In this document: positions 3,015 through 27,347 of the stretch, piece after piece
Layout: every line of letters starts with the position of its first letter
Numbering within the stretch: the stretch's first letter is position 1
DNA from: Reichenbachiella carrageenanivorans
GTDB lineage: Bacteria; Bacteroidota; Bacteroidia; Cytophagales; Cyclobacteriaceae
Assembly (NCBI RefSeq): GCF_025639805.1
Contig: NZ_CP106735.1
Span: forward strand, 4,373,501-4,437,500
DNA length: 64,000 nucleotides
Direction: 5' to 3'
Notes under the pieces: generated by a model
The model's input: only the letters and a program-made list of their open reading frames with translations
What the model was told of the DNA's origin: nothing
Database searches by the model: none
Program-made: the position numbers and the translations under genes

Positions 3015-3063
3015 AACGACTACAATGGATATATCAACCACTAGTGTGTGATATCCGGATGTT
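3015..3063 (+). repeat. Cassette entry palindrome, copy 1 (X1)
   Basis: An imperfect palindrome: GGAT, ATATCA, a short loop around CACTAGTG, then TGATATCC and GGATGTT. Bases 3027-3063 recur almost unchanged at 12908-12945 and 24790-24826. In all three copies the final GTT is the first triplet of a cassette. The right arm (TGATATCC, five bases, GTT) matches the right arms of the larger cassette sites, so this looks like a minimal attC-like or attI-like site. The function is inferred from position and repetition. Confidence 0.7.
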
Positions 3064-4070
3064 AGCGATAATCATCAATACTTAATGAAGAAATACTTAC
3101 TAATCACAACTTTGGCGTTGGCCATTATTAGTTGTTCGGAAAAACCACCAACCAACGAACAAATTGTTAACTCGCTTATTAGTCAAATAGATAGTATTGA
3201 ATCCATACCTAAATTCAACAAGGCATATTATCGACTTATTGATAGCTTATATTCAGTTGCCCCTAACAATACGTACGTTTTGCCTAAAGTGATTAACAAC
3301 GCATTTAATGACAAAAATGACAGCTTGGTTATCGTCCTCAGCCAACAACTTTTTGATTCCCTTCCACTTTCTTATTGTAATCTTTTTTACGGTTTAAGTC
3401 TTGAGAGAATTGGCTTACAAGATTCGGCAAACCAACATTATCAATATTTATTGCAGAATTACCCAGATTCGATTACTCTCTTGAATGGAAACTTCTCGAA
3501 ATACGAACTACTAACAGTACTTCACGGTAAGGATTCGGCATTATCAGAATTGAGAACTGTTTCAGATCAGAGTTCCTACGGATACCTTCGAACTCAAAAT
3601 GATATAGAAAACTATATTGGAAATGGTATGCATGAATTCATATGGTTCGGCACTGACAAAGACTTCCCCAACGAGTATCATGCAATTATTCCAGACTCAC
3701 TTTTCTTAACAGGAAAAATTAACAGCATGAGAAAAATCAGTGAGTATTTTGTTAAGTATGGAGTCAACATTTACAATGTAGGAACAGACACAAAGAACCA
3801 GGCATATATTTTTAGCTCGAAACCTCAATATGCAGAGAAAATCAAGGCCATTAAAGAGTTAACAATTACTCGTACGAATTAAAATATCGCTAACATCCTG
3901 TATCAAATCATGGCGGTTCAGTTGTAACTGAAAGCTCTCTGCATTTTGGAATCCCCGCCATATCTCAGATTAGCACTATGGAATCAAAAAGGGATAGCGC
4001 AAATCAGAGATTTGGCTATCTTGTAGCCGAAACTTAAACTATATCACACGCCACGCTTGATACAGTGGCG
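3062..4070 (+). mobile_element. Integron-like gene cassette A (lipoprotein cargo)
   Basis: The unit opens with GTTAGCGATA (3061-3070) and its gene is followed by the exact reverse complement TATCGCTAAC (3885-3894). The second copy begins a 181-bp folded site ending in GTT at 4070-4072, where the next cassette starts. A private terminal inverted repeat plus a shared folded site is what a circular cassette integrated by a site-specific recombinase would leave. The unit is visibly more AT-rich than pdxA upstream. No recombinase is encoded within it. Confidence 0.65.
3085..3882 (+). CDS. Uncharacterised TPR-like lipoprotein, cargo of cassette A
   Basis: 265 residues. Signal peptide with lipobox (KKYLLITTLALAIISC) gives a lipidated cysteine at about residue 17. 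The mature part is helical with tetratricopeptide-like spacing (YCNLFYGLSLERIGLQDSANQHYQYLL). The C-terminal third contains DIENYIGNGMHEFIW and ends in SSKPQYAEKIKAIKEL. I do not recognise a family. Low GC and asparagine/isoleucine-rich codon use differ from the flanking chromosomal genes and fit horizontal acquisition. It is the first gene after entry palindrome X1, and its stop codon lies only 3 nt before the terminal repeat. Confidence 0.75.
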   Translation: MKKYLLITTLALAIISCSEKPPTNEQIVNSLISQIDSIESIPKFNKAYYRLIDSLYSVAPNNTYVLPKVINNAFNDKNDSLVIVLSQQLFDSLPLSYCNLFYGLSLERIGLQDSANQHYQYLLQNYPDSITLLNGNFSKYELLTVLHGKDSALSELRTVSDQSSYGYLRTQNDIENYIGNGMHEFIWFGTDKDFPNEYHAIIPDSLFLTGKINSMRKISEYFVKYGVNIYNVGTDTKNQAYIFSSKPQYAEKIKAIKELTITRTN

Positions 4071-4072
4071 TT
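3892..4072 (+). repeat. attC-like cassette site A
   Basis: 181 bp from AAC (3892) to GTT (4072). The outer arms CTGTATCAAATCATGGCG and CGCCACGCTTGATACAG pair with a few unpaired bases. An inner pair, CCATATCTCAGATT with AATCAGAGATTTGG, makes a second stem. Site E (25414-25600) has the same length, the same inner stem and recognisably the same sequence. Extra-helical bases in a long imperfect hairpin are the mark of integron attC sites; the role is inferred. Confidence 0.65.
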
Positions 4073-5323
4073 GGCATTAATTACAGGAACTGAATGAAAG
4101 CAAGTAAACTTCTTGAATTTAAATTAAAAGGAGAAAGAAACATCTCGTCAAGAAAACCACTCATAATAGGTGAACGTATTTATGTTCCTTTCATTTTTGA
4201 CAAAAAAGGTTTTGTAGCAAGCAAGATGGTCTGTTTGAATAAAAATGACTTTGAAGTCAAATGGGAATATGACTACCCTTTTGTGATTAATAACATATTA
4301 GAATCCACAAATGGGAATGTTCTGATTTGCTGCATGGACGGTAAACTAAACGAACTTAAATCACAAAATGGAGAGTTGGTATCAACACTTGAATTAGAAA
4401 TGGATAGGTGTGGACATTCTTCTGCCATCAGTGACAATAGAATCGTAATAGGTGGCGTTCAAGGAACTAAAAAAATGAACTGTCTTGATTTAGATTCTCA
4501 GTCCATAAAATGGTCTTTTGATAATGGTGGGCACTCATATATTCCATTGATTAGTAATGAAAAAGTATATCAATGCACGGAGAAACTAATTAGATGTTTA
4601 GAGTTAAACACTGGCAAACTAATTTGGGAAGCGACAGAAGAAAATACTTACATCTTTAATCCGATATCATTCAATGAATTAATTGTTGTTGGTGGTCATG
4701 GTTTGATAAACATTTATGACAGCAATAAGGGAAAGCTTCTTCACCAAATAGAAACAGGTATTAGGGAATCGATAAGAGCTATTATATCTGATAATAACAA
4801 TCTGTACTTTGGGGATAGTTCAGGTGTTTTTTATGCCTATGAGATAAACGAAAAGAAAAACTTACTTGGTAAAAGAAGTATTCAATCTAAGGAACTGTGG
4901 AGATTCGAGTCTAATGGAAGTATTGAAAGCCTACCTAAAATTGTTGGAGAATCCATTTTGTTTATGAATGACGACAATAAATTGATTTGCCTTAATATGA
5001 GAAGTGGTGAAAGCAATTGGAGTTTCAATACCAAAGGTGAAGCAGGAATATCAAGTATTATAACAGATGAAGAAAATATATTTCTATCTGTTGGAAAAGG
5101 ATATTTATACAAACTAAAAGAAGAAAACTAATGCCAACAAGGTGCATAGCCAATAGGGCATTAGAGCTAAATTGAAAGTCCTGTTCTTTGAGCAGGCAAC
5201 GCCAAAACAAAGTTTTGACGTTTGTTGAAATAAAAATTAAAAGTAAAAAAACGTTTGTTTTGGCTTAGTGGTAACCCGAAAGTGAACTGCTTCGAATCTG
5301 CCCTACTGTCCATACACAGAACG
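4071..5323 (+). mobile_element. Integron-like gene cassette B (beta-propeller cargo)
   Basis: It starts exactly where site A ends, with GTTGGCATTA (4070-4079), and ends with the perfect reverse complement TAATGCCAAC (5129-5138), followed by site B. The stop codon of its gene lies inside the right repeat. Two cassettes sit head-to-tail in the same orientation, as in an integron array. The terminal repeat differs entirely from that of cassette A, so it is not a transposon family inverted repeat. Confidence 0.65.
4094..5131 (+). CDS. Cytoplasmic PQQ-type beta-propeller repeat protein, cargo of cassette B
   Basis: 345 residues without a signal peptide. Six or seven blades repeat with the PQQ-propeller spacing, each carrying a W-x-(F/Y/A) strand: VKWEYDYPF, IKWSFDNGG, LIWEATEEN, LWRFESNGS, SNWSFNTKG, with intervening 'CLNxxSG' turns such as CLELNTGKLIW. 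The fold supports ligand or protein binding; no catalytic residues can be assigned. AT-rich composition and the cassette boundaries on both sides suggest acquisition. A plausible RBS (AGGAAC) precedes the ATG at 4094. Periplasmic relatives such as BamB are lipoproteins, so this intracellular version is a different type. Confidence 0.8.
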   Translation: MKASKLLEFKLKGERNISSRKPLIIGERIYVPFIFDKKGFVASKMVCLNKNDFEVKWEYDYPFVINNILESTNGNVLICCMDGKLNELKSQNGELVSTLELEMDRCGHSSAISDNRIVIGGVQGTKKMNCLDLDSQSIKWSFDNGGHSYIPLISNEKVYQCTEKLIRCLELNTGKLIWEATEENTYIFNPISFNELIVVGGHGLINIYDSNKGKLLHQIETGIRESIRAIISDNNNLYFGDSSGVFYAYEINEKKNLLGKRSIQSKELWRFESNGSIESLPKIVGESILFMNDDNKLICLNMRSGESNWSFNTKGEAGISSIITDEENIFLSVGKGYLYKLKEEN

Positions 5324-5325
5324 TT
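5136..5325 (+). repeat. attC-like cassette site B
   Basis: 190 bp from AAC to GTT. The left arm AACAAGGTGCATAGCCAA runs on to TAGGGC. It pairs with GCCCTACTGTCCATACACAG, followed by AACGTT. The inner part carries CTGTTCTTTGAGCAG and AACGCCAAAACA/TGTTTTGGC stems. The segment GTAACCCGAAAGTGAACTGC resembles TTAACCGATAGGTTCGTGC in site D, so B and D form a subfamily. Confidence 0.6.
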
Positions 5326-5571
5326 GATGAGTACATAACTAAAGCTCAAATTACCATCTCTGATATTCAAATTGTTTTACAAAGGGAACTCTCTCATTTG
5401 CCAAAGAAGAAAACTTTGTTTGAGGCATTTTTCAAGGAAAATCCACATAACAGACGCTGATCGATACCTTTCATAGACTTCCAAACAGGCAAAAATGAAG
5501 TTTTAGTAAAAGACGAAATCTTTAAATGTTTTGGCAACTATCAAATCAACAAGACGATATATTAGCAAACA
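5323..5571 (+). pseudogene. Remnant reading frame in a decayed cassette downstream of site B
   Basis: The frame starting at the GTT of site B reads VDEYITKAQITISDIQIVLQ and on to LFEAFFKENPHNRR. It meets TGA at 5458 and then continues in the same frame as IPFIDFQTGKNEVLVKDEIF to TAG at 5571. Both halves look like genuine protein, and there is no usable start codon. I do not recognise the family. This looks like a third cassette of array 1 that has lost function. Confidence 0.4.
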
Positions 5572-5665
5572 AACTTAAAAATTGCACTTAGTCACAACGT
5601 TTACGAAAGGCTTAGATAATGATGGGTTGGTAATTCTAATAGACATTTCTTCATATAGTGGCTTA
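5548..5665 (+). repeat. Degenerate attC-like site closing array 1
   Basis: AACAAGACGATATATTAGC fits the left-arm pattern of the cassette sites, and TTCATATAGTGGC about 90 bp later fits the right arm (compare GATACAGTGGC in site A). The expected terminal GTT reads TTA. The bases before AAC (ATCAAC) match the GTTGAT that opens this unit. Weak but consistent. Confidence 0.35.
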
Positions 5666-5678
5666 GAGACGACAAACA

Positions 5679-5740
5679 AAAAGAGGCTACCTCAACACCT
5701 ACACCCTTTACAATGGGTAGGCCGAGGCAACCTCTTTCAT
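5679..5740 (-). terminator. Terminator of the shorter GH16 gene
   Basis: Read on the minus strand, AAAGAGGTTGCCTC and GAGGTAGCCTCTTTTTG form a long stem ending in a T-run, about 37 bp after the stop codon of the GH16 gene. An inner pair (CTACCC/GGGTGTAG) extends it. Confidence 0.75.
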
Positions 5741-5774
5741 CGCAATCACTAAAAGTTAGTCTGTCAAATCAAAA

Positions 5775-8489
5775 TCACTCAACAATAATCTTTCTCAAAT
5801 AAGATTGATCTGTGGTTTCTATTTTCAACAGATACAATCCTGACAGCTGATTGGTATCTAAGGTCAACTTGCCATGCTCAAGGCGCTTTCTCAAAATCAC
5901 CTTGCCTTGTATATCCAATACGGACACTTGTCCTGCTGAGGCATCCTTCAATTCGATCTGGATATAGTCTTTAGCTGGATTAGGAAAAACCTGAAACCAG
6001 CCTTCGCTGACAGTCTCCTCCACATCAGCATCGCCTATTCTTGCAGAGCTACAGTTGCCCAAGTCTATCCACCCTGCACAAGGCCCTGGTTCACATCCTC
6101 CATTTTTCACTCCACTGGTCCATTTCACTTCATAGAGATGGCCATTGTGACTGACCTGCTCTCCTTTGCTATAAGAGGTAGGCTGCCAGGCTGGAACAGA
6201 ACACCCACCACCAGTGCTCTGCACAGAGACTACGCAGGTAGCCGTATACCCTCCATCGTTGGTAGAAACGGTAATCGTAGCACTGCCAGCTGCTACTGCC
6301 GTAATCAAACCGTTAGCCGACACGGTAGCTACAGTCGTATGACTCGAAGACCAGCTTACTGCTTTGTTGCTCGCATTGGCTGGCAACACACTGGCCATTG
6401 CACTGATGGTGGCTCCCACATTCAGTGAGGCAACACTTGGAGAAACAGCGACATTACTAACGGCAACAGAACCCGTACCACCACCTTGCTCAGTCAGCGT
6501 AAAATCATCGGCATAGTACTGTCCTCCTCCGTTATTCCAAAACCAGATTTTATAATCTTGGGTAGCGCTACCAGTCGTGAAAGTTATTTCTGAATTAACG
6601 TAAGTGGTACTGGTGATTAGTGTATTGATAATAAATGTACTGGTAGTCTCATTGGTGACACCGAGGTACACACTCTGACCACTGCTACCCACTTTGGCAA
6701 AACACGAGGCTGTATAGGTCGTATTTGGCTGCAGGCTCACGGTCTGATTGACCGACCCATTGCCATTGACATAGGCCGCATAAGCACCTGAATGGACGTT
6801 GGACGACACCACGCTGGCATTTCCTGCTGTAGTCCAGTCGGTCATATCACCCGTTTCGAAGCCGGGATTGTCCAGTTTGTTAGTATTGACTGGCGGAGCG
6901 GATACCGTCACAGCTGCAGTGGCTGTATGCCCTCCATCGACAGACTGAACGGTGATAGCCGCCGCCCCTGCAGCTACGGCAGTCACGATGCCGCTACCGT
7001 TGACCGTAGCCACTGTGGGGTTGCTAGTACTCCATGTCACTGCTTTGTTGGTGGCGTTAGATGGGCTTACCGTTGTCGCGAGGTTGCTGGTTTGGCCGGC
7101 AGTCAGGCTCAAGTTGGTTGGCGCTACAGAGACACCCGATACTGCTACATTCGTAGGAGGGTTGGTCGTTCCTCCTGTGGTCAAATCGAAATCATCGCAA
7201 TATGCGGTACCTCCACTCCAATACCAGAACCGGTACGACTCCGCAGATGCACCAGTGGTAAAGGTGATACTTCCCTGACTGTACGACGTACTGGTAAATT
7301 CAAAATTATCTATCAATTCATTAGAAATCGCCTTTGAAACACCCATAAAGGCATTGGTGCTTCCAGCGGCTACCTTCCCATACGCCGTTACGGTATAGGT
7401 TGTGTTGGCTTCTAGTGCTACGATCTGAGCCACGCTAGCATTGGACACTGAAGCACAGTAGGTGCCTGTGTGTGCATTGTTATTCACGGCTGCGATAGTT
7501 CCCGAACTGGCACCCCAATAATCGAGATTGCCCAATTCGAAGTCGTCGTTGCCTAGCTCTCCAGCAGGAAGCGGCGGGTTGTTGTTGGTGCCGGATTTCT
7601 CCCAAACTCGGACATAATCCACATACATCGATGTAGGCATTTCAGACAACAATGCATTGGCCTCTGGGTCAGTGACTGGGTTGATGGCATTGTTTCTATT
7701 GTCATAAAACTGAACAAATGGTTTTCTCAACCCCAAAGACAAAGTCACATTCATCGGACGATTCCAATAGGTATTGGGTTTTCTGCCCACCTCTACGCCA
7801 TCCACATACCAGATGATTTCATTTTCATTGACTTCACAGCCATAGATATGGAAATCGTTTCGAGGATCCCAAGGTGCTCTCCACTTGTTGAGCTGCTCGG
7901 CTGGATATTGTTTAGGTCTACGCCATTCACGGGCTCCATTCTTTTTGACCACAGCGTGCAGGTTGAGATCCATATCTCGGACATCATCTTGATGCCCTTC
8001 GTACCAGTCGAATTGCTGCAGTTCTACTACGTCAATTTCGGAATAAATAGTCTCTCCCTCTGGTGCACTGTCATCAAAATTGCTAAACAGCCAAAAAGAA
8101 GGACAAACACCAGACCCAGACAATGGCGAACCTTTGATTTTCGCCTCAAAATACCCATAGGTAAAAGTGTTGTAAGACTTGAGAATACCAGACTTAAAAT
8201 AAGTCCCCTGCGCTGGCACGTTTCCCGCATTGTGACTCATAGTCAGCTCAGCGATACCATCTTCCACCTTTACATTGTTGGTATTGTCCCAAAGCCATGA
8301 CGAGGTATTGGGTAAGTTTCCGGTTCGAATCCACTTGGCCCAATCGGGCGATCCACCGTTGAATTCATCCGAAGCACTCCATCTGATCTCCCATGTGTCA
8401 TTAGGGTTGGTCGTTTTCGCGGGCGATTGCCCGTACGTGATGTTAGCTGCAAATAGCAGTAAACATATCAGTGAATAAATTTTCATCAT
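5775..8489 (-). CDS. Secreted multidomain GH16 glycanase with T9SS sorting signal
   Basis: 904 residues. Signal peptide 1-20; GH16 domain about 35-300 with the catalytic EIDVVE (E151 nucleophile, D153, E156 acid/base; the beta-bulge form found in laminarinases, agarases and carrageenases). Then come a jelly-roll carbohydrate-binding module (about 312-440), a Big_2 Ig-like domain (about 450-530), a second binding module, a second Big_2 domain, a chitin-binding-like CxVPAW module near 760-805, and a C-terminal type A T9SS sorting domain (PNPAKDYIQIEL to the end). It would be secreted across the outer membrane to cut a beta-glucan or red-algal galactan; which one cannot be decided by eye. It follows the larger GH16 gene in the same direction. 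Confidence 0.9.
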   Translation of the reverse strand: MMKIYSLICLLLFAANITYGQSPAKTTNPNDTWEIRWSASDEFNGGSPDWAKWIRTGNLPNTSSWLWDNTNNVKVEDGIAELTMSHNAGNVPAQGTYFKSGILKSYNTFTYGYFEAKIKGSPLSGSGVCPSFWLFSNFDDSAPEGETIYSEIDVVELQQFDWYEGHQDDVRDMDLNLHAVVKKNGAREWRRPKQYPAEQLNKWRAPWDPRNDFHIYGCEVNENEIIWYVDGVEVGRKPNTYWNRPMNVTLSLGLRKPFVQFYDNRNNAINPVTDPEANALLSEMPTSMYVDYVRVWEKSGTNNNPPLPAGELGNDDFELGNLDYWGASSGTIAAVNNNAHTGTYCASVSNASVAQIVALEANTTYTVTAYGKVAAGSTNAFMGVSKAISNELIDNFEFTSTSYSQGSITFTTGASAESYRFWYWSGGTAYCDDFDLTTGGTTNPPTNVAVSGVSVAPTNLSLTAGQTSNLATTVSPSNATNKAVTWSTSNPTVATVNGSGIVTAVAAGAAAITVQSVDGGHTATAAVTVSAPPVNTNKLDNPGFETGDMTDWTTAGNASVVSSNVHSGAYAAYVNGNGSVNQTVSLQPNTTYTASCFAKVGSSGQSVYLGVTNETTSTFIINTLITSTTYVNSEITFTTGSATQDYKIWFWNNGGGQYYADDFTLTEQGGGTGSVAVSNVAVSPSVASLNVGATISAMASVLPANASNKAVSWSSSHTTVATVSANGLITAVAAGSATITVSTNDGGYTATCVVSVQSTGGGCSVPAWQPTSYSKGEQVSHNGHLYEVKWTSGVKNGGCEPGPCAGWIDLGNCSSARIGDADVEETVSEGWFQVFPNPAKDYIQIELKDASAGQVSVLDIQGKVILRKRLEHGKLTLDTNQLSGLYLLKIETTDQSYLRKIIVE

Positions 8490-8510
8490 GTGATAAGCGT
8501 TTTAGTTTGT

Positions 8511-8562
8511 ATAAAAAATTGTATTGATTGCAGGCACCTCCTCGTGAGATACCTGCAATCAA
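8511..8562 (-). terminator. Terminator between the two GH16 genes
   Basis: TTGATTGCAGG (8524-8534) and CCTGCAATCAA (8552-8562) are a perfect 11-bp inverted repeat. On the minus strand it begins 3 nt after the stop of the 1184-residue gene and is followed by TACAATTTTTT. The two enzymes are therefore probably separate transcripts or differ in expression. Confidence 0.8.
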
Positions 8563-8565
8563 TTG

Positions 8566-12120: not shown

Positions 12121-12812
12121 TACATTTAATAGTTAGATTTTAGTTTATTATGAGCAATTATTGCCATGCACATACCCTAGATCTGGCCATCATGGATATG
12201 TCTGGTGTAGTTATTAAGACTTATTTAAAAATCAACTTCTGTGTTTAGCAGCCCTTGATTGACACAAAACATCAAAGGCACCTTGTTGACACGAATTGGA
12301 CATAGCTCTCCTCTTGACGAATTCTTATTTTTTGAATTCGAATGATTCACTACGATTCTATATGTTGGATGAGCACGGAATGAGGAGCCTCAACGATCTG
12401 TTGTCCTGTGCTTTACAAATTCTTGATTAGTATGGTTTCTCCATAGGCTGATTTTGAATGAAGGAAATCTAATTTACTTATGACTCACCATGAAATATCG
12501 AGACGAACACTTTCGCTCGGCATGATGCACTTCACAAAGAAGAATACCCTACTACACTACCATGATACCCCACTTCGTGTACGCTATACAAATTAGAACT
12601 CAGTAGCGATTACACACGCCGTTCTAATTTTTAATGTTTCAAATGTACACAGGCATAGTACCAGTTATCCTACAAATATTACCATAGACAAGCAGTATTT
12701 TACCCCTATTATTAGGCCAAGTAGTCCCATACAGGATAATTAAATACTACCCATGCAATATTGATGTTCCCTTACGCTCTCGTACACTTCCTTCATAAGA
12801 TATACCCAAAAC
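12121..12812. other. Gene-free spacer upstream of the large GH16 gene
   Basis: About 690 bp with no convincing reading frame. The right part holds a perfect inverted repeat AATTAGAAC (12591-12599) / GTTCTAATT (12621-12629) followed by TTTAAT, which would work as a weak terminator on the + strand or end a small RNA. The left part must contain the promoter of the GH16 gene. GAATTC occurs twice around a T-run near 12320-12345. Nothing else is recognisable. Confidence 0.4.
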
Positions 12813-12945
12813 TTGCAATCTACTCCACATTAATTTATTCTTGTCTAAGGCCAAGCCTAACCGCAGCCCTTCTGAGAGAAAAGAATACTTTTAAAACTAT
12901 AACATAAGGAATATATCAACCACTAGTGTGTGATATCCGGGTGTT
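12813..12945 (+). repeat. 133-bp cassette entry repeat, copy 2 (X2)
   Basis: About 90% identical by eye to 24693-24826. Shared blocks include ATCTACTCCACATT, GTCTAAGGCCAAGCCTAACC and ACTTTTAAAACTATAACATA. The last 45 bp (12901-12945) are the palindrome also found at 3015-3063. The repeat stops at the GTT where cassette C begins, in the same way as copy 3. It codes for nothing obvious. Best guess: a landing site that accepts cassettes. Confidence 0.7.
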
Positions 12946-14629
12946 ACCACCAAGCTGAAAAAAAACGTGGATTTAACCATTAAAGACATATTAAACCTTG
13001 AAGATTTAAATGAGTTCAGTTCGGAAGAAGTGACTAATTTCCTTGCAATAATATTTGAGACAGGTAGAGAATCTCGGGATATAGAGCAAATTAGGGTTGG
13101 ACTGAATTTTTCAGAGCGTCAAAAGTTAGAAAAGTTTTCCAATGACGACAAAATGACGTTTCATTACAACATAGCCAACGGGTGGTCTTATTCACAACAA
13201 TTAACGCAACAGTTAAATTCACCCGAATTTTGGAGCTTTAATTCTATTGAATTGGAGCAACAAATAATTAATTTAAGGCTTGCCTATTCATTCTCCCAAA
13301 ACAGTAAAGACAATTTTAAAAAGTGTCAAATTCTAACCAATTTAGGTAATCTTTTTAGTCATTTAGGGAGATTCTCAGAAGCTCAATTATATTGGCAAAA
13401 AGTATTGAAAATTGATTCTTCTTTTCCAATGGCTCACGGGAATATTGGATTTGGACTTTTTCATTATGCTAAAGTGCTTTACGACAATGGACACCAATTT
13501 CTATTTTTTCAATTTGCCCATAAACATTTAAAGAAATCAATCAACTCTGAAATTTATGAAGATGCCAAATTAGCCTTTAAAGAAATCGTCAGTCAATTGG
13601 AGACAATTATTAAAAAGGAAGAATTAGAAAACATTCAAGATTTGAAATCCTTTTCAATTGGAACAACTGAACAAGAGCGAGAATACAGAAAATGGTGTTT
13701 AAAAAATCAACTTTTTATAAATCCGCTCAATGATGTTACAACAGAAAACATTGCTGGGCACGATTGTCTCCTCTTACCTACAATGACTTTAAAATTTGAC
13801 CAACCTCCTGTTTATCAAACAATATTCAACCAAATAAAACAAGAATTTGTTTCTGCAAGGCATTTGCTATATAGTGGAATAAACGAAAGAGAATTGCACT
13901 ATTCTGATAAAGAAAATCTTCAACTTGACACTTTAGATTATGCAGTATATTCATACAGCAGCGAGAAAGTAAAAATTGCTTTCAGAATATGCTATTCTAT
14001 CTTTGATAAAATTGGATATTTATTAAACGATTATCTTAATTTAGGTTTTAAACCAGAAAAGGTTACGTTTAGAAATATTTGGAGTCTTTACGATAAACAA
14101 ACGAAATCTCATAAATTAAACCCAAAAGTAATTCAAACTCAAAATTGGGCTTTAAGAGGTTTGTATTGGTTAAGCAGAGATTTATTCGACAAAAACGAGG
14201 AGTTCTCTTCAAACATAGAACCTGAAGCACGAGAATTAGCTCAAATCAGAAATTTTATAGAACACAAATCATTTAAGATAATAGACATCGGACAAAGTGC
14301 TATTCAAGATAATGGATTAACATATTCTATTGCAAGAGCTGAATTTGAAACAAAGACAATAAATTTAATGAAACTAATAAGAGCGGCTATGATTTACCTA
14401 TCACTTGGTCTTAACTTGGAAGAGAAAAAAAAGAAAATCACCAAACCCGTTTTACCTATTGATTTCGTTGAATTAAAAGATGACTATAAAAGATAAAGCC
14501 AGGTGGTAACAATGTGTATAAGTAATAGCGGTTTAAGTGATAAAACGAAAGTATAAACATAAAACAAAGGTTAGTGTAAAACTGAAAGGTTTGTGAGTAA
14601 AAATCCGCTACTACTCATACATGAGACCG
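12944..14629 (+). mobile_element. Integron-like gene cassette C (HEPN cargo)
   Basis: It opens with GTTACCACC (12943-12951) directly after entry repeat X2 and closes with the perfect reverse complement GGTGGTAAC (14502-14510), which begins folded site C. The nine private bases are different from those of the other cassettes. The unit is AT-rich and carries one gene on the + strand. Confidence 0.65.
12967..14496 (+). CDS. LA2681-like HEPN domain protein with TPR region, cargo of cassette C
   Basis: 509 residues from a GTG at 12967; no ATG is available nearby. The N-terminal half is helical with a TPR unit (NLGNLFSHLGRFSEAQLYWQKVLKIDSSFPMAHGNIGFGLF, about 125-165). The C-terminal half holds the HEPN domain, with IAFRICYSIFDKIGYLLNDY near 337-356 and the RX4H ribonuclease motif RNFIEH at R428-H433. 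Layout and motif spacing match the LA2681-type HEPN family. HEPN proteins of this kind are often toxins or antiviral RNases acting on RNA; the target here is unknown. No antitoxin gene accompanies it. Low GC fits acquisition. Confidence 0.8.
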   Translation: MDLTIKDILNLEDLNEFSSEEVTNFLAIIFETGRESRDIEQIRVGLNFSERQKLEKFSNDDKMTFHYNIANGWSYSQQLTQQLNSPEFWSFNSIELEQQIINLRLAYSFSQNSKDNFKKCQILTNLGNLFSHLGRFSEAQLYWQKVLKIDSSFPMAHGNIGFGLFHYAKVLYDNGHQFLFFQFAHKHLKKSINSEIYEDAKLAFKEIVSQLETIIKKEELENIQDLKSFSIGTTEQEREYRKWCLKNQLFINPLNDVTTENIAGHDCLLLPTMTLKFDQPPVYQTIFNQIKQEFVSARHLLYSGINERELHYSDKENLQLDTLDYAVYSYSSEKVKIAFRICYSIFDKIGYLLNDYLNLGFKPEKVTFRNIWSLYDKQTKSHKLNPKVIQTQNWALRGLYWLSRDLFDKNEEFSSNIEPEARELAQIRNFIEHKSFKIIDIGQSAIQDNGLTYSIARAEFETKTINLMKLIRAAMIYLSLGLNLEEKKKKITKPVLPIDFVELKDDYKR

Positions 14630-14631
14630 TA
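14508..14631 (+). repeat. attC-like cassette site C
   Basis: 124 bp. The left arm AACAATGTGTATAAGTAATA and following GCGG pair with CCGCTACTACTCATACATGA, then GACC and GTA. The terminal triplet is GTA instead of GTT. Site D has the same length and arms. Confidence 0.6.
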
Positions 14632-14741
14632 TCTATGCCTCACCCAAAAGACGACACCAGTGAAAAAAGTTACTGAAATCAAACAGAGTTTATTAATAAT
14701 TTAGAATGAATGTTTATCATAAGTAGCTAAAGGAATTTATA

Positions 14742-15803
14742 ATGAAAGAGACATTTGACACCATTGTAATTGGGGGAGGACAAAGTGGTCTAGCTTGTGG
14801 CTACTATCTTAGAAGAGCCAAATTGAATTTTTTAATTATTGATAAACAACAAGTTGCTGGGGGTGCTTGGTTAAATGCTTGGGATAGCTTAACTCTTTTT
14901 TCACCAGCCGATTATAGTTCTTTGCCTGGATGGTTGATGCCAAAATCTGAAAATAAATTTCCATTAAAAAAAGAGGTAATTGATTATTTATCAAAATATG
15001 AAGCACATTACCAGTTAAATGTAAAACGTGGAGTAGAAACTATCCAAATCACAAAGGATAATAGTTTTTTTCAAGTTCATTCCAATCAAGGCATTTTTAA
15101 ATGTAAAACAATTATTTCCGCAACTGGAACTTGGGAAAATCCCTTCATTCCAAAATTAAAAGGCCTAGAAAATTTTAAAGGCCTTCAAATTCATTCTCGT
15201 AATTACAAAAACCCAGATGCTTTTGTAGGTTTAAAAACTTTGGTAGTAGGAGAAGGTAATTCAGGTGCGCAAATAGTAGCAGAAACCTCAAAAGTCACCA
15301 CCGTAAAGTGGTCAACTAAAAGGGATCCTGAATTTTTACCTGACGAGGTAGACGGCTATTACCTGTTTAACGTAGCCACTGCAAAATACAAAGCTGAAAA
15401 AGAAGGAAAACCTTTTGATGCATCACAATACAACTTAGGAAATATAGTAATGGTACCACCTGTGAAAGAAGCTCGAAAAAGAGGAGTTTTGGTATCGAGT
15501 GGGTCATTCCACAAACTAACTAAAAATGGTGTAGTATGGGACAGTGGTATGGAAGAGGAATTTGACGCCATAATTTGGTGCACCGGTTTTGGGTACGCCA
15601 CAGATTATTTAAAATCATTAGTAAAAACGGATGAAAGAGGTATAGCCAAAACTCAAGAAAGTAGATCACTAGAAGTTGATGGTTTGTGGTTAGTTGGTTA
15701 CGGTGGCTGGACAGGGTATGCATCGGCTACCCTCGTAGGACTAAACAGAACTGCAAAACAAACCATTAAAGAAATCGAAGAATATTTTAAGGTATATTCT
15801 TGA
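14742..15803 (+). CDS. Flavin-dependent monooxygenase (FMO-like, single-component)
   Basis: 353 residues. FAD-binding IVIGGGQSGLACGYYLRR at residues 6-23, the FMO-type signature FKGLQIHSRNY (FxGxxxHSxxY) near 145, and NADPH-binding VVGEGNSGAQI near 168. The C-terminus ends GYGGWTGYASATLVG. Small flavin monooxygenases of this type (for example the ArsO/CzcO-like group) oxidise S, N or other soft atoms; the substrate is unknown and no metal-resistance genes are adjacent. It has a good RBS (AAAGGA) and lies between attC-like sites C and D, so it is probably a second cassette of array 2, although its terminal repeats have decayed. Confidence 0.85.
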   Translation: MKETFDTIVIGGGQSGLACGYYLRRAKLNFLIIDKQQVAGGAWLNAWDSLTLFSPADYSSLPGWLMPKSENKFPLKKEVIDYLSKYEAHYQLNVKRGVETIQITKDNSFFQVHSNQGIFKCKTIISATGTWENPFIPKLKGLENFKGLQIHSRNYKNPDAFVGLKTLVVGEGNSGAQIVAETSKVTTVKWSTKRDPEFLPDEVDGYYLFNVATAKYKAEKEGKPFDASQYNLGNIVMVPPVKEARKRGVLVSSGSFHKLTKNGVVWDSGMEEEFDAIIWCTGFGYATDYLKSLVKTDERGIAKTQESRSLEVDGLWLVGYGGWTGYASATLVGLNRTAKQTIKEIEEYFKVYS

Positions 15804-15884
15804 GCAAGAAAAATTTAAACCTTAATGCAATGGAGACACATTTTAAAAAACAGTGAGATTATCAAATCCAAGTGCGAAGGCACA

Positions 15885-16008
15885 CACAATGCATATAAAA
15901 AATAGGCGAATAATTACTAAAATCAAAAGTTTTGGCTCGCATTAAACTTTATGCTTAACCGATAGGTTCGTGCTATAAAACCGCCTACTTCTCATATACT
16001 AACCTGAA
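15885..16008 (+). repeat. attC-like cassette site D
   Basis: 124 bp. The left arm CACAATGCATATAAAAAATA, followed by GGCG, pairs with CGCCTACTTCTCATATACTA. The expected AAC and GTT ends read CAC and GAA, so the site is probably worn. The inner segment TTTTGGCT...TTAACCGATAGGTTCGTGC resembles site B. Between 16009 and the next gene (16282) I see only the 13-bp GTCTAAGGCCAAG at 16192-16204, also present in both 133-bp repeats. Confidence 0.55.
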
Positions 16009-22461: not shown

Positions 22462-22504
22462 CTAGGTCATTGGTCTGACCAATAATATCTCATGACCACC
22501 CGCA

Positions 22505-22540
22505 GGGAGACAGTAGCAGCACCGTCTCCCTGTACTTTTC
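22505..22540 (+). terminator. Terminator of the CotH gene
   Basis: GGGAGAC (22505-22511) and GTCTCCC (22524-22530) pair perfectly, followed by TGTACTTTTC. A second perfect palindrome, ATTGGTC-T-GACCAAT, lies at about 22469-22483. Confidence 0.65.
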
Positions 22541-22733
22541 TACGCCCTCTTTCTTGCTCCCTGTTAGAACCAAAACGAATTACCATTCATCGTTTCACAC
22601 GACCAGAAAAGCATTTATTTTTTAAGTCTTTGCAACCAACAATTACAATCTTGAATTGTAAATTACTAACGGCGATGAATCATAGCAGGCTAACGCTTCG
22701 ATAGATTTCATCCTATAACGGGCAGCGAGTAGC

Positions 22734-23336
22734 ATGATTCAAGAAAATGAATGGTTGGAGCAGATGGCAAGCGGGAGCGACGAAGCTTTGGTGTGGTTTT
22801 ACAACCAATACGCCACCAAAGTGTACAACACCATCATCAGCTACACCAAAAATGCCGAAGACGCCGAAGAAGTGCTTCAAGATGTGTTTGTCACCTTGTT
22901 CAACACGGCAGCTAAATTCAAACACGAAGCCTCGGTCAGCACGTGGATCTACCGCATTGCGGTCAACAAATCTCTGGATTTTCTAAGGAAAAAAAATAGC
23001 GCCAAGCGCATGGGTGTTTTTTCCTCATTGTATAAAAAAGGTAGCAATGAGACCATCATCGAGCCCGTAGATTTTGTGCATCCTGGCGTAACACTCGAAA
23101 ACTCCGAAGATGCCAAACTTTTGTTTCGTGTGATCGATCGCCTGTCCGACAACCAGAAAACAGCCTTTATCCTAACCCAAATTGAAGGCTTGCCCCAGCA
23201 GGAAGTAGCCGACATTATGAAAATAACGCGCAAGTCTGTGGAGTCGCTGCTGCAACGTGCCAAAGCTAATTTGAGAATAGCTTTAGAAAATTATTATCCC
23301 GAACGAGGGAAAACATCAAAAAATACGTCTAGTTAA
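22734..23336 (+). CDS. ECF RNA polymerase sigma factor
   Basis: 200 residues. Region 2 includes EALVWFYNQYATKVYNTII and the DAEEVLQDVFVTLF helix, with STWIYRIAVNKSLDFLRKK; region 4 contains LSDNQKTAFILTQIEGLPQQEVADIM and an HTH ending VESLLQRAKANLR. It heads a four-gene envelope operon with a small membrane protein and two Spy/CpxP-like proteins. That resembles CnrH/ZraP-type envelope-stress or metal-sensing modules. The 23339 product would be the anti-sigma factor. Inducer not visible. Confidence 0.88.
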   Translation: MIQENEWLEQMASGSDEALVWFYNQYATKVYNTIISYTKNAEDAEEVLQDVFVTLFNTAAKFKHEASVSTWIYRIAVNKSLDFLRKKNSAKRMGVFSSLYKKGSNETIIEPVDFVHPGVTLENSEDAKLLFRVIDRLSDNQKTAFILTQIEGLPQQEVADIMKITRKSVESLLQRAKANLRIALENYYPERGKTSKNTSS

Positions 23337-23338
23337 TT

Positions 23339-23617
23339 ATGGAAGAGTGGAAAGATAAAATCATGAACAGTTTGGACGGAATGGAAAAAGCCCAACCACC
23401 CAAAGACAGATTGCAAAAAATACAAGCTGCCATCGCCCAACAACACCATATATCCGTATCTCCAAAAGGCCTCTCATGGATGGCCGTAGCTGCGGTTATC
23501 TTGTTAGTGATTTGCTCCAACGTAATGGTAGTCACGCACTATTTTGATCAAACTTCCAATATTTCTGCTTTCGAAACCTACGTACCTTTGACAGCTAACT
23601 TTAATATCTACGAATAA
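23339..23617 (+). CDS. Small single-pass membrane protein, probable anti-sigma factor
   Basis: 92 residues: a 45-residue charged cytoplasmic part (KDKIMNSLDGMEKAQPPKDRL), one transmembrane helix (WMAVAAVILLVICSNVMVV, about 48-66) and a short periplasmic tail. It starts 3 nt after the sigma-factor stop and its own stop overlaps the next start in TAATG. Position, size and topology fit a minimal anti-sigma factor that holds the ECF sigma at the membrane; no family domain is recognised. Confidence 0.65.
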   Translation: MEEWKDKIMNSLDGMEKAQPPKDRLQKIQAAIAQQHHISVSPKGLSWMAVAAVILLVICSNVMVVTHYFDQTSNISAFETYVPLTANFNIYE

Positions 23618-24102
23618 TGAAAAACAAGATTTACCAAATAGGTCTGGGTCTCATGTTGCTGGTCAATGGGATACTCATTTTCCTCTTCGTACAAGGTGCC
23701 CCTCGCCCACCTCGCCATGACAGATCGCCAAAGCAGAATGGACTCATGGAAAAAATAAGCCAACAATTGCAACTCACTCCCGAGCAACAAGCCAATTATT
23801 TTGAATTAGCGAAAGCGCATGCCACACATATGAATGTCATCGACAAATCGCATAAGAAATTGCTGAAAACCTATTTTAAATCACTCATTCTTCCTTCTGA
23901 GCAGCAACCAAACCATGACCAACTACTGCATCAGATCCAATCTTTGGAAGCTCAAAAAATCACAATAACCTACCAGCATTTCCACGACCTAAAAGCGCTC
24001 TGCAACGAATCTCAAAAGGCTCATTTTGAGCTGATTATCAACGACATGTTTGATGTTTTGATTCGCAACAGCAAAAACAATCCACCTCCCCCGAGGGATT
24101 AA
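23617..24102 (+). CDS. Membrane-anchored Spy/CpxP-like periplasmic sensor protein
   Basis: 161 residues. An N-terminal transmembrane anchor (IYQIGLGLMLLVNGILIFLF) is followed by a helical periplasmic domain with LQLTPEQQANYFELAKAHATHM (LTxxQ motif), several His/Met residues, and a proline-rich tail. It resembles CnrX/heavy-metal-resistance proteins that hold the anti-sigma factor until a ligand binds. Translationally coupled to the putative anti-sigma gene. Confidence 0.65.
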   Translation: MKNKIYQIGLGLMLLVNGILIFLFVQGAPRPPRHDRSPKQNGLMEKISQQLQLTPEQQANYFELAKAHATHMNVIDKSHKKLLKTYFKSLILPSEQQPNHDQLLHQIQSLEAQKITITYQHFHDLKALCNESQKAHFELIINDMFDVLIRNSKNNPPPPRD

Positions 24103-24147
24103 GAAAGTCTTCACGTCTATAGGGTATTCATTAAAGAAACTATAGAC

Positions 24148-24459
24148 ATGAAAAAGATCGTTATGATAATCGCAGTATTGGGTCTCACTGCCACTGCTTA
24201 TGCCCAAGGGCCTGGAAGACAGCGTCCTCAGCGCCCAAATGCAGAAGAAATGATAGCCAAGGCTACAGAAGACCTCAATCTGACAGACGAGCAAGTGGCT
24301 CAGTGGGAAGCTATTCACAAAAAATACGAATCGTCTAGCAAAAAAGATGGGCGAAAAGCTATGGGTGAAGAGCTAGAGGCCACACTCACAGAAGAGCAAC
24401 TGGTGGTATTCAAGAAAATGAGAGAAAACCAAAAGCCTCCAAGAGGCGGTAGAAACTAA
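24148..24459 (+). CDS. Small periplasmic Spy/CpxP-like protein
   Basis: 103 residues. Signal peptide KKIVMIIAVLGLTATAYAQ, then a basic helical domain with LNLTDEQVAQWEAIHKKYES and LEATLTEEQLVVFKKM, that is, two LTxxQ motifs, and an arginine/glycine-rich tail. Likely an effector chaperone made under control of the upstream sigma factor. Last gene of the operon; the following 230 bp hold nothing recognisable before the entry repeat. Confidence 0.7.
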   Translation: MKKIVMIIAVLGLTATAYAQGPGRQRPQRPNAEEMIAKATEDLNLTDEQVAQWEAIHKKYESSSKKDGRKAMGEELEATLTEEQLVVFKKMRENQKPPRGGRN

Positions 24460-24692
24460 GCCATCTGGTAACCTTATAAATAGTCTCATGATGGGAGGTC
24501 GTCTCAAAAGCTTGATCATCTAAAGCTTGACTCACAAGGCCTACACACCCTAGGAAATTTGATAGTAACAAGGCTTCGAATTTCTGGGTGCGTACTGCTC
24601 ACCTGATCGCTTTATTTGCTTTTGATTCTGCCTCCTTTTTATTTAACCTCCCTACCCTTGTCCTGAACCAGGCAAAATTCTTTGTACAAGAT

Positions 24693-24826
24693 TTGCGATC
24701 TACTCCACATTGATTTATTCTTGTCTAAGGCCAAGCCTAACCGTAGCCCCTCTGAGAAAAAAAGAACACTTTTAAAACTATAACATAAAGGATATATCAA
24801 CCACCAGTGTGTGATATCTGGATGTT
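24693..24826 (+). repeat. 134-bp cassette entry repeat, copy 3 (X3)
   Basis: Near-identical to 12813-12945, with about ten scattered differences by eye. It ends with the palindrome at 24782-24826 (AACAT at the left, ATGTT at the right), whose GTT opens cassette E. Because the conserved region extends upstream of the palindrome in copies 2 and 3 but not in copy 1, the ancestral landing site is probably the longer unit. Confidence 0.7.
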
Positions 24827-24836
24827 GTAGGTAATT

Positions 24837-25088
24837 ATGAGTAAGACTCAAGAAAAATATTATTTGAAAATATTAAGTGATAAAGATTATAATCACTCAG
24901 TTGTTGAGTTAAAATTTCAAAAGCTGGAAATTGATTTATCTAAATATAATTTATTTCAAGTGAAATCGGCTATTTCGTATTTATCTAGATATGAAGATGA
25001 AATTGATTCAATAATTATTAATGCAAATCAAAATATAGATATAATACTAAACGCTGCTACTGTAAAACAAGAACGAAGCAAAAATTGA
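24837..25088 (+). CDS. Small uncharacterised protein, first gene of cassette E
   Basis: 83 residues, beginning MSKTQEKYYLKILSDKDYNH. Mixed alpha/beta pattern: SVVELKFQKLEIDLSKYNLF, then a helix QVKSAISYLSRYEDEI and IIINANQNIDIILNAATV. No signal peptide, membrane segment or known motif. The start is 4 nt after the left terminal repeat. The next gene begins 4 nt after the stop, so the two form an operon and could be a pair (for example effector and immunity). Family unknown. Confidence 0.65.
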   Translation: MSKTQEKYYLKILSDKDYNHSVVELKFQKLEIDLSKYNLFQVKSAISYLSRYEDEIDSIIINANQNIDIILNAATVKQERSKN

Positions 25089-25092
25089 TTTA

Positions 25093-25404
25093 ATGGGAAC
25101 ATTTGGTAATAGATTTTACGAAATTGGAAGAGGTTATGAAGTCGTCTCATCTCAATAAAAAAGACCTTATATAATTGGAGTAGATTTAAACGAGAAAGAA
25201 AAGCCATTTGTTCTTGCTTCGGGTGATCATCATTCAGACCTAGGAGCAATAACAGTGAGCTTAGAGGATTTATTATCAGAGAAATGGAAAGAACATATCT
25301 CAAAATCAAATTGCACAAAATTTGTAACTGAATTACGGATAGCCATTAGTTCTGGAGAATCATTCCCACCTAAATTTCTAATAAAAAGAGTGAACAATGA
25401 ATAA
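25093..25404 (+). pseudogene. Second gene of cassette E, interrupted by a nonsense codon
   Basis: ATG at 25093 reads MGTFGNRFYEIGRGYEVVSS, then TAA at 25156. The same frame continues without break as KRPYIIGVDLNEKEKPFVLA to IKRVNNE, stopping at 25404, 2 bp before the right terminal repeat. Intact, it would be about 103 residues. Reinitiation downstream is possible but no good start is visible. A true stop, a recoded stop or a sequencing error cannot be separated here. Family not recognised. Confidence 0.65.
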
Positions 25405-25413
25405 ACTACCTAC

Positions 25414-25600
25414 AACAAGCTGTGATGAAATCATGCGTGGATAGTGCTAGACGACAGTTTTCTGTATTCTGGAAGCCCTGCCAATTCTGCGAATTGGCCT
25501 ATTGAGAAAATGAAAAAAGTAATAGCCCATTTCGCAGATTTGGCTATTTAGTATCAGAAAGATTAACTTTCCAAAAACGCACGCTTCATACAGGGGCGAT
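25414..25600 (+). repeat. attC-like cassette site E
   Basis: 187 bp. The arms AACAAGCTGTGATGAAATCA and CGCACGCTTCATACAG pair. The inner stem CCAATTCTGCGAATTGG / CCCATTTCGCAGATTTGG matches the inner stem of site A in position and partly in sequence. It ends in GAT instead of GTT and is followed directly by the 3' end of the hipT-like gene. Confidence 0.6.
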
Positions 25601-25613
25601 AAACTCCATCAGA

Positions 25614-26540
25614 TTAACCGAAAAGTTGATTGTGTTTACTTTCAATCAATTGACTATAATTCCCCATCATTTCTTCGGATAAGAAAGACTGATTTATAAA
25701 GTCTATCCAGATATTATGAAGTTTTGAGTACTTATTTAGAATATTCTCGGCCGCTTTATTAGGTATGCCAGAGGTAGTCATAGCGCTAAAAAAATCAGAT
25801 TTTCTCAGTCTTTTCTTTTTACCGCATAATGTCAAGGCAAGCTCTTCATCATCTCCTTCAACCACTAGAGCTGAAGAAACTAAATCATAAGCAGGAGCCA
25901 ATTCATAATGACCTTGCTCATTCTTTAGCAATGAAAAGTTCTTTAAATGCATGTCAGCATTTCCAGTCAGAAAACTAAAAAGAGTCAATTCATAAAACCT
26001 TACTAAATCAAGACCTGGATTTATACTACTTCGTTTGATCTCTTTAGCTATCTGCTCATGAGATGACTTGTATTTGTCTTCCGTTAGTCTTCCCAGCAGT
26101 TGGCACATATCCTCCATATGCTTTTTCACTCCCTCATTTCTATCCATTCTTTTAGTTATGTAAGCTAATTCTCCGGAATCCAATCGCACCAAAGAATGCT
26201 TGGCAGTTCTAATTCTTGATAGTTGAGCAAGATGCATGGTCAGGTCTTCTATTTGAGGAAGTTCTTCCCACATTGGCGACTGAGGCTTTAGGATATATTG
26301 ACCCCAAAGGCCAACTATTGTCAACTTTTCAGGCTCATTGTCTGGTTTTTCTATGTGCAAGGATAATTTCGGCTGAACACCTGTAACTGTTGTCTTCCCC
26401 TTAATCATCTGTTTAGCAAGGCTCAGAAGATCTGCCTCAGTGTATGGCACTTTTGGAGGTTCTGAAACTCCGAATATTTTCTTACTACAATTCGGGTGAA
26501 AATCACCTTCTGAGTCTCTATAGCAGTATAGACAATTCAT
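25614..26540 (-). CDS. hipT: HipT-like serine/threonine kinase toxin (HipA core)
   Basis: 308 residues. It begins with a zinc-ribbon-like CLYC...HPNC common in Bacteroidota HipA proteins. Kinase features: phosphate loop TTVTGVQPKLS (T51, V52, T53 where E. coli HipT has the autophosphorylated Ser-x-Ser pair), ATP lysine K85 (YILKP), catalytic NADMHLKN (D196, K200, N201) and metal ligand D219 in APAYDL. It lacks the HipA N-terminal subdomain, which is a separate gene just upstream, as in HipBST. HipA/HipT kinases phosphorylate aminoacyl-tRNA synthetases (GltX, TrpS) and stop growth. Overlaps hipS by ATGA. Confidence 0.88.
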   Translation of the reverse strand: MNCLYCYRDSEGDFHPNCSKKIFGVSEPPKVPYTEADLLSLAKQMIKGKTTVTGVQPKLSLHIEKPDNEPEKLTIVGLWGQYILKPQSPMWEELPQIEDLTMHLAQLSRIRTAKHSLVRLDSGELAYITKRMDRNEGVKKHMEDMCQLLGRLTEDKYKSSHEQIAKEIKRSSINPGLDLVRFYELTLFSFLTGNADMHLKNFSLLKNEQGHYELAPAYDLVSSALVVEGDDEELALTLCGKKKRLRKSDFFSAMTTSGIPNKAAENILNKYSKLHNIWIDFINQSFLSEEMMGNYSQLIESKHNQLFG

Positions 26541-26851
26541 ATTAATGGCTCAATTGATACAGCTCCTATGCAATCTTTGCATGCAACAAGGAGAACTCCC
26601 ATTCTATCCTTTTCACTGACTTTCCAATTTTTTTCAACTATATCCAAAATCCAACCTTCTGGAATAAGACCATCAAAAAATGGAAACAGTATATTTGAAT
26701 GAAACGGCTCTTGTTGTAATTGCAGAGTTAAACTTATGGGTGCTCTCCCTTTTGCGAAATATTCGTATTCGTATTGAAAATGATACCCTTCTTCATCTTC
26801 GGTTAGTGTCCCAGCCCACTCATCTTGGTAAAGTACTTTTGCTTTCCTCAT
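26537..26851 (-). CDS. hipS: HipS-like antitoxin (stand-alone HipA N-terminal subdomain)
   Basis: 104 residues. VLYQDEWAGTLTEDEEGYHF and the signature ILFPFFDGLIPEGWILDIV are those of the HipA N-terminal subdomain 1, here a separate protein. In the HipBST system of E. coli O127 the HipS protein, not HipB, neutralises the kinase; that role is inferred here. It overlaps hipB by 32 nt and hipT by 4 nt, so the three are one translationally coupled operon. Confidence 0.82.
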   Translation of the reverse strand: MRKAKVLYQDEWAGTLTEDEEGYHFQYEYEYFAKGRAPISLTLQLQQEPFHSNILFPFFDGLIPEGWILDIVEKNWKVSEKDRMGVLLVACKDCIGAVSIEPLI

Positions 26852-27056
26852 CTCTGTTAACTTCTATTGGTCCCAATTCATATCCAAAGAGATTTAAAAC
26901 TTGATTGACCTTGTCCATTTTCAGTGTTGGCTTTCCTTGCTCAAGCTCTCGAACAAATCTTAATCCAACCCCAGCGGCAAATGACAGATCTTCCTGTTTC
27001 ATTCTGGCTTGCTTTCTTTTCTCTTTGATGAACTGTGCTAATGTTGTTTTCATCAT
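26820..27056 (-). CDS. hipB: HipB-like HTH antitoxin/repressor
   Basis: 78 residues. An HTH_3/Xre domain fills most of the protein: LAQFIKEKRKQARMKQEDLS, then FAAGVGLRFVRELEQGKPTL (helices 2-4). First gene of hipB-hipS-hipT. It should bind the palindromes directly upstream, the nearest of which is centred about 20 bp from its start codon, and repress the operon. Confidence 0.88.
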   Translation of the reverse strand: MMKTTLAQFIKEKRKQARMKQEDLSFAAGVGLRFVRELEQGKPTLKMDKVNQVLNLFGYELGPIEVNRDEESKSTLPR

Positions 27057-27067
27057 CTCTATAACTC

Positions 27068-27203
27068 TATACCCTTTCGGGTGTAATATAGCAAATTATA
27101 ACAATTTATACCATAACGGGTATAAAATTTTCGATATCTCCACTACTATACCCTTTAAGGTATAAAAATGAAAATATAAGTTAATTACACCTTATCGGGT
27201 ATA
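27068..27203 (-). promoter_or_regulatory. Four regularly spaced hipB operators
   Basis: Four 18-bp pseudo-palindromes of the form TATACC-N6-GGTATA: TATACCCTTTCGGGTGTA (27068-27085), TATACCATAACGGGTATA (27107-27124), TATACCCTTTAAGGTATA (27147-27164) and TACACCTTATCGGGTATA (27186-27203). Centres are 39, 40 and 39 bp apart, close to four helical turns, so bound HipB dimers would face the same side. They resemble the E. coli HipB operator (TATCC-N8-GGATA). The hipB promoter must lie among them. Confidence 0.85.
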
Positions 27204-27241
27204 GTGCAAAAAAGACGACAAACAAATTACAGAGTCTAATA

Positions 27242-27347
27242 AACGACATAGCACATGCCTCTTCTGAGTTACTTGAATCCTATATACAAGACCGATATTT
27301 TAGTAGAACTTAAATGAGCCCAGAGGCACGTGCCATATCTGGTCGTT
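27242..27347 (+). repeat. attC-like cassette site F
   Basis: 106 bp from AAC to GTT. The left arm AACGACATAGCACATGCCTC pairs with GAGGCACGTGCCATATCTGG followed by TCGTT; five bases are unpaired on one side. It has no large inner stem. Together with site E it brackets the hipBST operon. Confidence 0.55.

Follow-up and report, generated by a model that had tools for sequence, protein, structure and literature searches.

A 64,000-nucleotide stretch of the Reichenbachiella carrageenanivorans genome (positions 4373501-4437500 of a single-contig 4.81-Mb assembly, NZ_CP106735.1; hereafter the window) very probably carries an integron-like cassette system, in three arrays that stand apart from one another. 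This system would be served by a dedicated tyrosine recombinase encoded elsewhere in the genome, with an attI-like hairpin at the 3' end of the recombinase gene and recombination through the bottom strand of folded, attC-like sites. The sequence shows integron-like geometry, private cassette ends, head-to-tail arrays, cassette duplicates with precise boundaries, strand-biased folding energies, a linkage of integrase, GTT and cassette in many genomes, and the absence of the insert that marks the integron integrase IntI.

Cassette arrays in the window

Three entry palindromes were identified in the window (3027-3063, 12909-12945, and 24790-24826), and the parts common to them are the hairpin, a four-base spacer and G/TT, the slash marking the junction. 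Behind each entry palindrome stands a unit in which the ten bases at the left end recur, reverse-complemented, in an AAC-ended stretch at the start of the folded site. These private ends pair at nine or ten of ten positions in cassettes A, B, C and F (Table 1). Cassettes A and B form array 1 and stand head to tail with the GTT at 4070 common to both, as the initial annotation had described. Array 2 consists of cassette C and array 3 of cassette F, with degenerate units behind both (14630-16004 and 25599-27345), which have site-like right ends and no intact private pair. The single architecture originally proposed for the three loci thus stands for the entry palindromes and the private ends, but not for the right end of the sites, which is GTT only in A and B. 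Cassette DNA is AT-rich, with 31-36% GC (1-kb bins from 3000, 4000, 5000, 13000, 14000, 15000, and 25000) versus 42% in the whole window. Among the cargo proteins, Pfam identified a beta-propeller, an oxidoreductase, a HipA-type pair and a HEPN protein of the LA2681-like kind. The protein of cassette A has four relatives besides itself at E 1e-8 or better. The + strand gene unit of the initial annotation does not hold for the HipA genes, which lie on the - strand. Four extra window units returned by a looser unit finder were taken for chance matches.

The entry hairpin across the genome

At up to three mismatches, the entry hairpin was detected in 15 genomic copies, with zero control hits. Private ends follow all 15 copies (11 at 10/10 and 4 at 9/10), whereas for random GTTs in own-genome stretches, with the partner sought within 2 kb, the chance level was 1.2% at 10/10 and 6.6% at 9/10 or better. 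Together with the pairs at the window arrays, this bears out the integron-like geometry first suggested for the window. Most copies (13/15) are more than 100 kb away from the integrase gene described below. Of the other two, one lies directly beside that gene and the second, in inverted orientation, about 6.5 kb upstream of it. Homology between these platforms stops at G/TT on the right and has no clear boundary sequence on the left. Eight copies share a leader of approximately 90-140 bp or more, and nine of the 15 have the motif TTG-N19/20-TANN[TC]TTG 129-142 bp upstream (expected 0.014 per 200 bp), which we take to resemble the Bacteroidota promoter consensus.

A recombinase without the IntI insert

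The genome-encoded tyrosine recombinase that the initial annotation had proposed to look for is a 401-aa protein. Its gene (4798786-4799988) lies outside the window at a distance of about 361 kb, and the integrase missing from the window thus sits elsewhere in the genome. The 3' end of its gene is itself one of the entry copies, with an array behind it. Of the earlier description of scattered arrays without a local integrase, the dispersal behind entry copies was confirmed, with the correction that the genome does encode an integrase. A 26-residue remnant of the integrase gene end lies inverted about 7.7 kb away.

This cassette integrase is XerA/Xer-like, and its catalytic residues (by our assignment R239, K264, H328, R331, H354, and Y363) are invariant in 32 homologues. 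It scores 193 bits versus an IntI cut-off of 265 bits. Of 44 family rows, 40 could be measured for the spacing between the boxes, and all of these have 88-93 residues. The two Xer rows of the own genome have 91 and 95, versus 129-131 in 12 IntI rows. In the alignment, IntI4 residues 180-244 face just 22 residues of the recombinase, and the IntI-specific additional domain (I2) is absent from the cassette integrase.

These results bear on the possibility of an ordinary integron, in which a classic IntI acting in trans would move the cassettes and their attC sites, clustered as in CALIN (clusters of attC sites lacking an integrase). The geometry, the strand bias and the C before the terminal GTT are indeed integron-like, classic IntI above the cut-off was found in 2/118 family genomes, and IntI-type proteins of Bacteroidota exist. 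Yet the own genome gave no match to IntI that reached E 1e-40, the linked recombinase falls below the cut-off and lacks the insert, the sites fit the classic consensus poorly (see below), and in many genomes the arrays start beside the insert-less enzyme. We consider this explanation very unlikely.

Residues 1-105 of the integrase (L002/L024) had no Pfam match. Fold prediction weakly favors XPB damage-recognition domains for them and ranks eIF1-type and SMARCAL1 HARP folds lower. Elsewhere in the own genome, adjacent pairs of tyrosine recombinase genes, preceded by a gene of about 300 aa, occur in L004 and L006 (~4.736 and 0.370 Mb), and L005 (~4.744 Mb) is a second match of equal score 7.6 kb from L004. 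These recombinases resemble the cassette integrase only distantly.

Linkage of integrase, hairpin and cassettes in other genomes

Integrase homologues were detected in 72 of the 118 family genomes (E 1e-60 or better) and, at E 1e-75 or better, in at least 7 of 395 phylum genomes (own included) from three families, the phylum figure being a lower bound because four candidates were scored per genome. We collected 46 integrase loci from 41 genomes (the own locus, 40 places from the family list and 5 from the phylum list), which are not all independent since several genomes give more than one. With 1.8 kb or more after the stop, 36 loci were testable, own included, and 10 were too short. In 28 of these 36 loci, a GTT no more than about 150 bp from the integrase stop pairs with a private partner at 9/10 or better, and in 20 it does so at 10/10. 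Random control points in the same loci, arrays included, gave 43/660 and 15/660, respectively. The hairpins of relatives differ in sequence, and their form is often kept.

Within the genus, G068 has eight copies of its own hairpin, G118 one and G120 two, and private ends were present in the 1.5 kb covered at 9 of the 11. None was found in four other genus genomes, whose hairpins may differ. A genome of another family (G255) has two hairpin copies, and a private partner was found for one. Of the 23 genomes whose integrase is close, 16 contain one particular attC family, versus 19 of 95 others (p 1e-5), the cut for a close integrase (E 1e-98 or better) having been set after the lists were seen.

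Ten integrase loci of draft genomes (L074, L084, L089, L090 and others) had less than 1.8 kb past the stop, and four contigs end within 110 bp of it. Contigs ending just past the integrase are expected if these genomes hold repeated hairpins that break assemblies.

Anatomy of cassettes and attC-like sites

A total of 174 units, of which the own genome contributed 29 and relatives the other 145, were collected by private ends, stem pairing and GTT end. Four features outside this selection recurred: an A follows AAC in 167 of the 174 units, and among those 167 a C precedes GTT in 156, a purine follows it in 163, and the eleventh left-end base is A in 161. When right ends were picked by the stem (n = 130), the next GTT had a private partner at 9/10 or better in 112 cases and at 10/10 in 59, compared with 10-13% and 1.8% in controls. 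The longest open reading frame (ORF) is on the + strand in 148 of 167 units and on the - strand in 11, while 8 have none of 60 aa. The median gap between this ORF and the left end is 25 nt, and that between it and the R'' end is 13 nt. The initial annotation had placed the ends outside the RYYYAAC/GTTRRRY consensus, and this held: GTTRRRY was found in 17/167 ends, as column composition predicts.

Private ends are inverted repeats flanking a gene, and could on that ground be the terminal inverted repeats of small transposons or miniature inverted-repeat transposable elements. However, the repeats are private, the site extends about 60-240 nt from the right repeat onward, head-to-tail units share sites, and no target duplication was found at the junctions of the three identical copies described below. 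This origin is hardly credible.

The same anatomy bears on site-specific recombination of double-stranded DNA, in which an Xer-like enzyme would act on the duplex hairpin and the site ends, folding being incidental. The XerA/Xer-like nature of the enzyme favors this explanation, as does the statement, in the available text of PMC7790495, that deletion of the insert abolishes IntI1 function. Nevertheless, every cassette has an R arm of its own on the crossover side, the 167 ends falling into 135 distinct sequences, which leaves duplex sequence recognition little to grip, and the stems are biased toward bottom-strand folding as detailed next. Duplex recombination is therefore improbable, albeit a more serious contender than a classic IntI in trans.

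Strand bias of folding

Among 157 distinct sites, computed whole-site stability was higher for the bottom strand in 118 and for the top strand in 36, and the computed outer stems were more stable on the bottom strand in 141. The direction of the mismatch bias was the same in 58 of 59 informative clusters, with 8 ties. A conserved A faces C on the top strand, which gives a G.T pair on the bottom strand; outside it, the remaining mismatches on the top strand comprised 69 A/C against 12 G/T. In this computed preference for the bottom strand, these sites are like integron attC sites.

Such a bias is a mark of strand and argues against selection on the + transcript. Terminators or other RNA elements behind vertically inherited genes would also fold and lie directly behind genes, as the sites do. 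But it is the transcript (top) strand that receives A.C mismatches instead of G.U pairs, the window has no Rfam match at gathering score, the same cassette occurs at three places, and the loci examined in relatives lack the cassette genes. We give transcriptional hairpins next to no credence.

Cassette duplicates and loci of relatives

One cassette is present in triplicate. Two of the copies stand in the integrase array and the third lies about 1.3 Mb from it, and over 851-855 bp all three are 100% identical. The flanks of the three copies switch exactly at G/TT. The precise junctions anticipated from strain comparisons were seen instead in identical copies at different places of one genome. 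Furthermore, a 715-bp stretch is 99.7% identical between two arrays. Between genera, attC modules are up to 97% identical (mostly 87-97% among the matches listed), and these matches are bounded near AAC and G/TT, with cassette bodies unmatched. Genes of the window cassettes are missing from the corresponding loci of genus relatives (0/7, 0/5 and 0/3). The constant presence of the same genes at the same loci, which the initial annotation had named as refuting its proposal, was therefore not seen.

An IS110-family element of 1270 bp was observed in seven nearly identical copies (L028:3413-4682; L024, L025, L026, L027 (two), and L031), with its transposase at L028:3448-4467 (-). It lies between G and TT at attC ends, as judged from 6/6 readable left flanks and 7/7 right flanks.

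Proposed mechanism

Under the integron-like explanation, cassettes would circularise, and R'' would pair with the cassette's own left end once circular. The substrate would be single-stranded and catalysis would be carried out by the cassette integrase, which would cut the folded bottom strand of the attC-like site at G/TT and join it to the hairpin. Circular cassettes would in this way be inserted at G/TT of the integrase hairpin and of its dispersed copies, where the promoter-like motif of the leader may drive them.

Several observations weigh against this explanation. Recombination is deduced from sequence and was not observed. In the available text of PMC7790495, the I2 helix is stated to be necessary for cassette capture, unique to IntI and the part that gives single-strand recombination, and the cassette integrase is without it. 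Eight of the 36 testable loci have no private partner at 9/10, one of them with a stop-interrupted integrase (L096), and the plain hairpin score exceeded all 20 shuffles in just 20 of 43 integrase loci. At the E 1e-60 threshold, the attC family mentioned above occurs in 25/72 genomes with the integrase and 10/46 without (p 0.15). The one conserved A facing C accounts for some two thirds of the strand bias (137 of 206 A/C pairs), and sites in the 140-175 nt length class are unbiased (11/21). Finally, the clean empty sites envisaged at the outset were not seen at base level in genus relatives, whose intergenic DNA could not be aligned.

Beyond the cassette system itself, we tentatively entertain, as a possibility short of an even chance, a second integron lineage in Bacteroidota that is free of the IntI insert. 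Folded single-stranded cassettes would be recombined by another route, the N-terminal domain of many members would read folded DNA, and attI hairpins would have spread as extra landing platforms. The domains toward which the predicted N-terminal fold weakly leans, XPB damage-recognition and SMARCAL1 HARP, are fork-binding. If IntI branches within the insert-less integrase family, the ancestor of integrons would have a living relative in this family.

Features of the window

The coordinates of all features are given in Table 1.

Table 1. Features of the cassette arrays in window coordinates. Private ends are given as pair positions and matching bases; z compares folds of the site with shuffles.
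Feature	Position	Strand	Details
Entry site 1	3027..3063	+	attI-like hairpin, GGAT spacer, G/TT 3061-3063; one of 15 genomic copies
Cassette A	3062..4070	+	ORF 3085-3882, 265 aa, no Pfam match; private ends 3061/3885, 10/10
attC-like site A	3885..4072	+	R'' 3885-3894; right end C/GTT; bottom-strand z -4.4, outer L''/L' stem absent from the lowest-energy fold
Cassette B	4071..5323	+	ORF 4094-5131, beta-propeller, PQQ/BamB-like (Pfam); private ends 4070/5129, 10/10
attC-like site B	5129..5325	+	Bottom-strand z -2.2
Leader of entry site 2 (repeated)	12807..12908	+	~90% identical to 24687-24789; promoter-like TTG-N20-TATTCTTG ~130 bp before GTT
Entry site 2	12909..12945	+	Hairpin, spacer, G/TT 12943-12945
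Cassette C	12944..14629	+	ORF 12967-14496, LA2681-like HEPN with TPR, PF18733; private ends 12943/14501, 9/10
attC-like site C	14501..14629	+	Right end ...GAGACC/GTA (G/TA, not GTT); bottom-strand z -2.9
Probable decayed cassette D	14630..16004	+	ORF 14742-15803, FAD/NAD(P)-dependent oxidoreductase (Pfam); site-like 15880-16004 with, in our reading, AAC to CAC and G to T changes
Leader of entry site 3 (repeated)	24687..24789	+	Repeat of entry site 2 leader
Entry site 3	24790..24826	+	Hairpin, spacer, G/TT 24824-24826
Cassette F	24825..25598	+	ORF 24837-25088, 83 aa, no Pfam match; private ends 24824/25407, 10/10
attC-like site F	25407..25598	+	Right end ...GGGGC/GAT (G/AT); bottom-strand z -5.4; 87% like a site of G068 (L071)
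Probable HipA cassette	25599..27345	.	Genes 25614-26540 and 26537-26851 on - strand; no intact private pair; right end ...TCTGGTC/GTT, GTT at 27345-27347; 27245-27346 80% like L028:6978-7078
Probable degenerate cassette	27346..28068	+	attC-like module ~27922-28068 at end, of the widespread attC family; 27928-28068 (genome 4401428-4401568) 77% like L024:17096-17247

The HipA_C and Couple_hipA proteins (25614-26851) are encoded on the strand opposite to their array, as cargo of a probable cassette. Further downstream, the ORF at 32716-35265 contains four copies at 240-bp spacing (33590-34609), which are 62-71% identical to the reference copy.

Relation to known systems

Classic integrons have been reported from Bacteroidota (PMC9668308, PMC2426708), and the insert is not fully conserved in an integron-like subgroup (PMC8138268), as stated in the available sections of these papers. 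Those of the IntegronFinder 2.0 paper name a single complete integron in Bacteroidetes proper, in Salinibacter ruber M1 (PMC9024848). No description of an insert-free integron system was found in the available sections of the literature searched (PMC7790495, PMC9024848, PMC9668308, PMC8138268, PMC3607928, PMC2727003, PMC2426708, PMC8352920, and PMC11187229), in agreement with the earlier remark that no formal description was known for Bacteroidota. Like integrons, this genome of a marine member of Bacteroidota would keep spare genes in movable cassettes. Since the enzyme that probably moves them lacks a part regarded as essential to integrons, the system seems to form a branch of its own within integron-type gene capture, apparently one not described before. 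If it works as we read it, the insert would not be the sole route to folded-cassette recombination, and the origin of integrons becomes testable. It also uncovers a reservoir of cassettes in Bacteroidota that searches with IntI models would miss.

The chromosomal integrons of Treponema differ in that their integrases are counted as IntI, and dispersed attI hairpins are absent from the available part of their description (PMC3607928). The IS110-family element at attC ends resembles the IS1111-attC elements of classic integrons, as far as these are covered in the available part of PMC11187229, in occupying the attC crossover, but here the targets are non-classical sites. Compared with XerA/Xer recombinases, the cassette integrase is distinguished by its linkage to the hairpin and cassettes and by its N-terminal domain. 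CALIN are attC clusters without an integrase, with two or more attC sites away from the integrase gene. Several distant arrays of the own genome hold two or more sites and match this definition, but their sites are not of the classic type. Insertion of cassettes at attG sites has reportedly been described by Loot et al. in 2024. Both systems place cassettes off the main platform, although here the scattered cassettes lie behind copies of one attI-like hairpin.

On the one hand, the system resembles integrons (IntI, attI, attC) in its cassette geometry, in the R''-L''/L'-R' site that ends in C before GTT, in the bottom-strand folding bias, in head-to-tail arrays with mostly co-oriented genes, and in a primary insertion site beside the recombinase gene. 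On the other hand, it differs in the lack of the IntI insert, in R arms of about 10 nt without RYYYAAC/GTTRRRY, in the conserved A(T) after the arm, in an attI-like hairpin just past the stop of the integrase gene (in the own genome, the hairpin overlaps the end of that gene), in the dispersed attI copies, and in the extra N-terminal domain of many members. The absent insert, the score below the cut-off and the few GTTRRRY ends leave it integron-like in its working and outside IntI membership: it is an integron by function-like anatomy and a non-member by IntI domain and R-box consensus.

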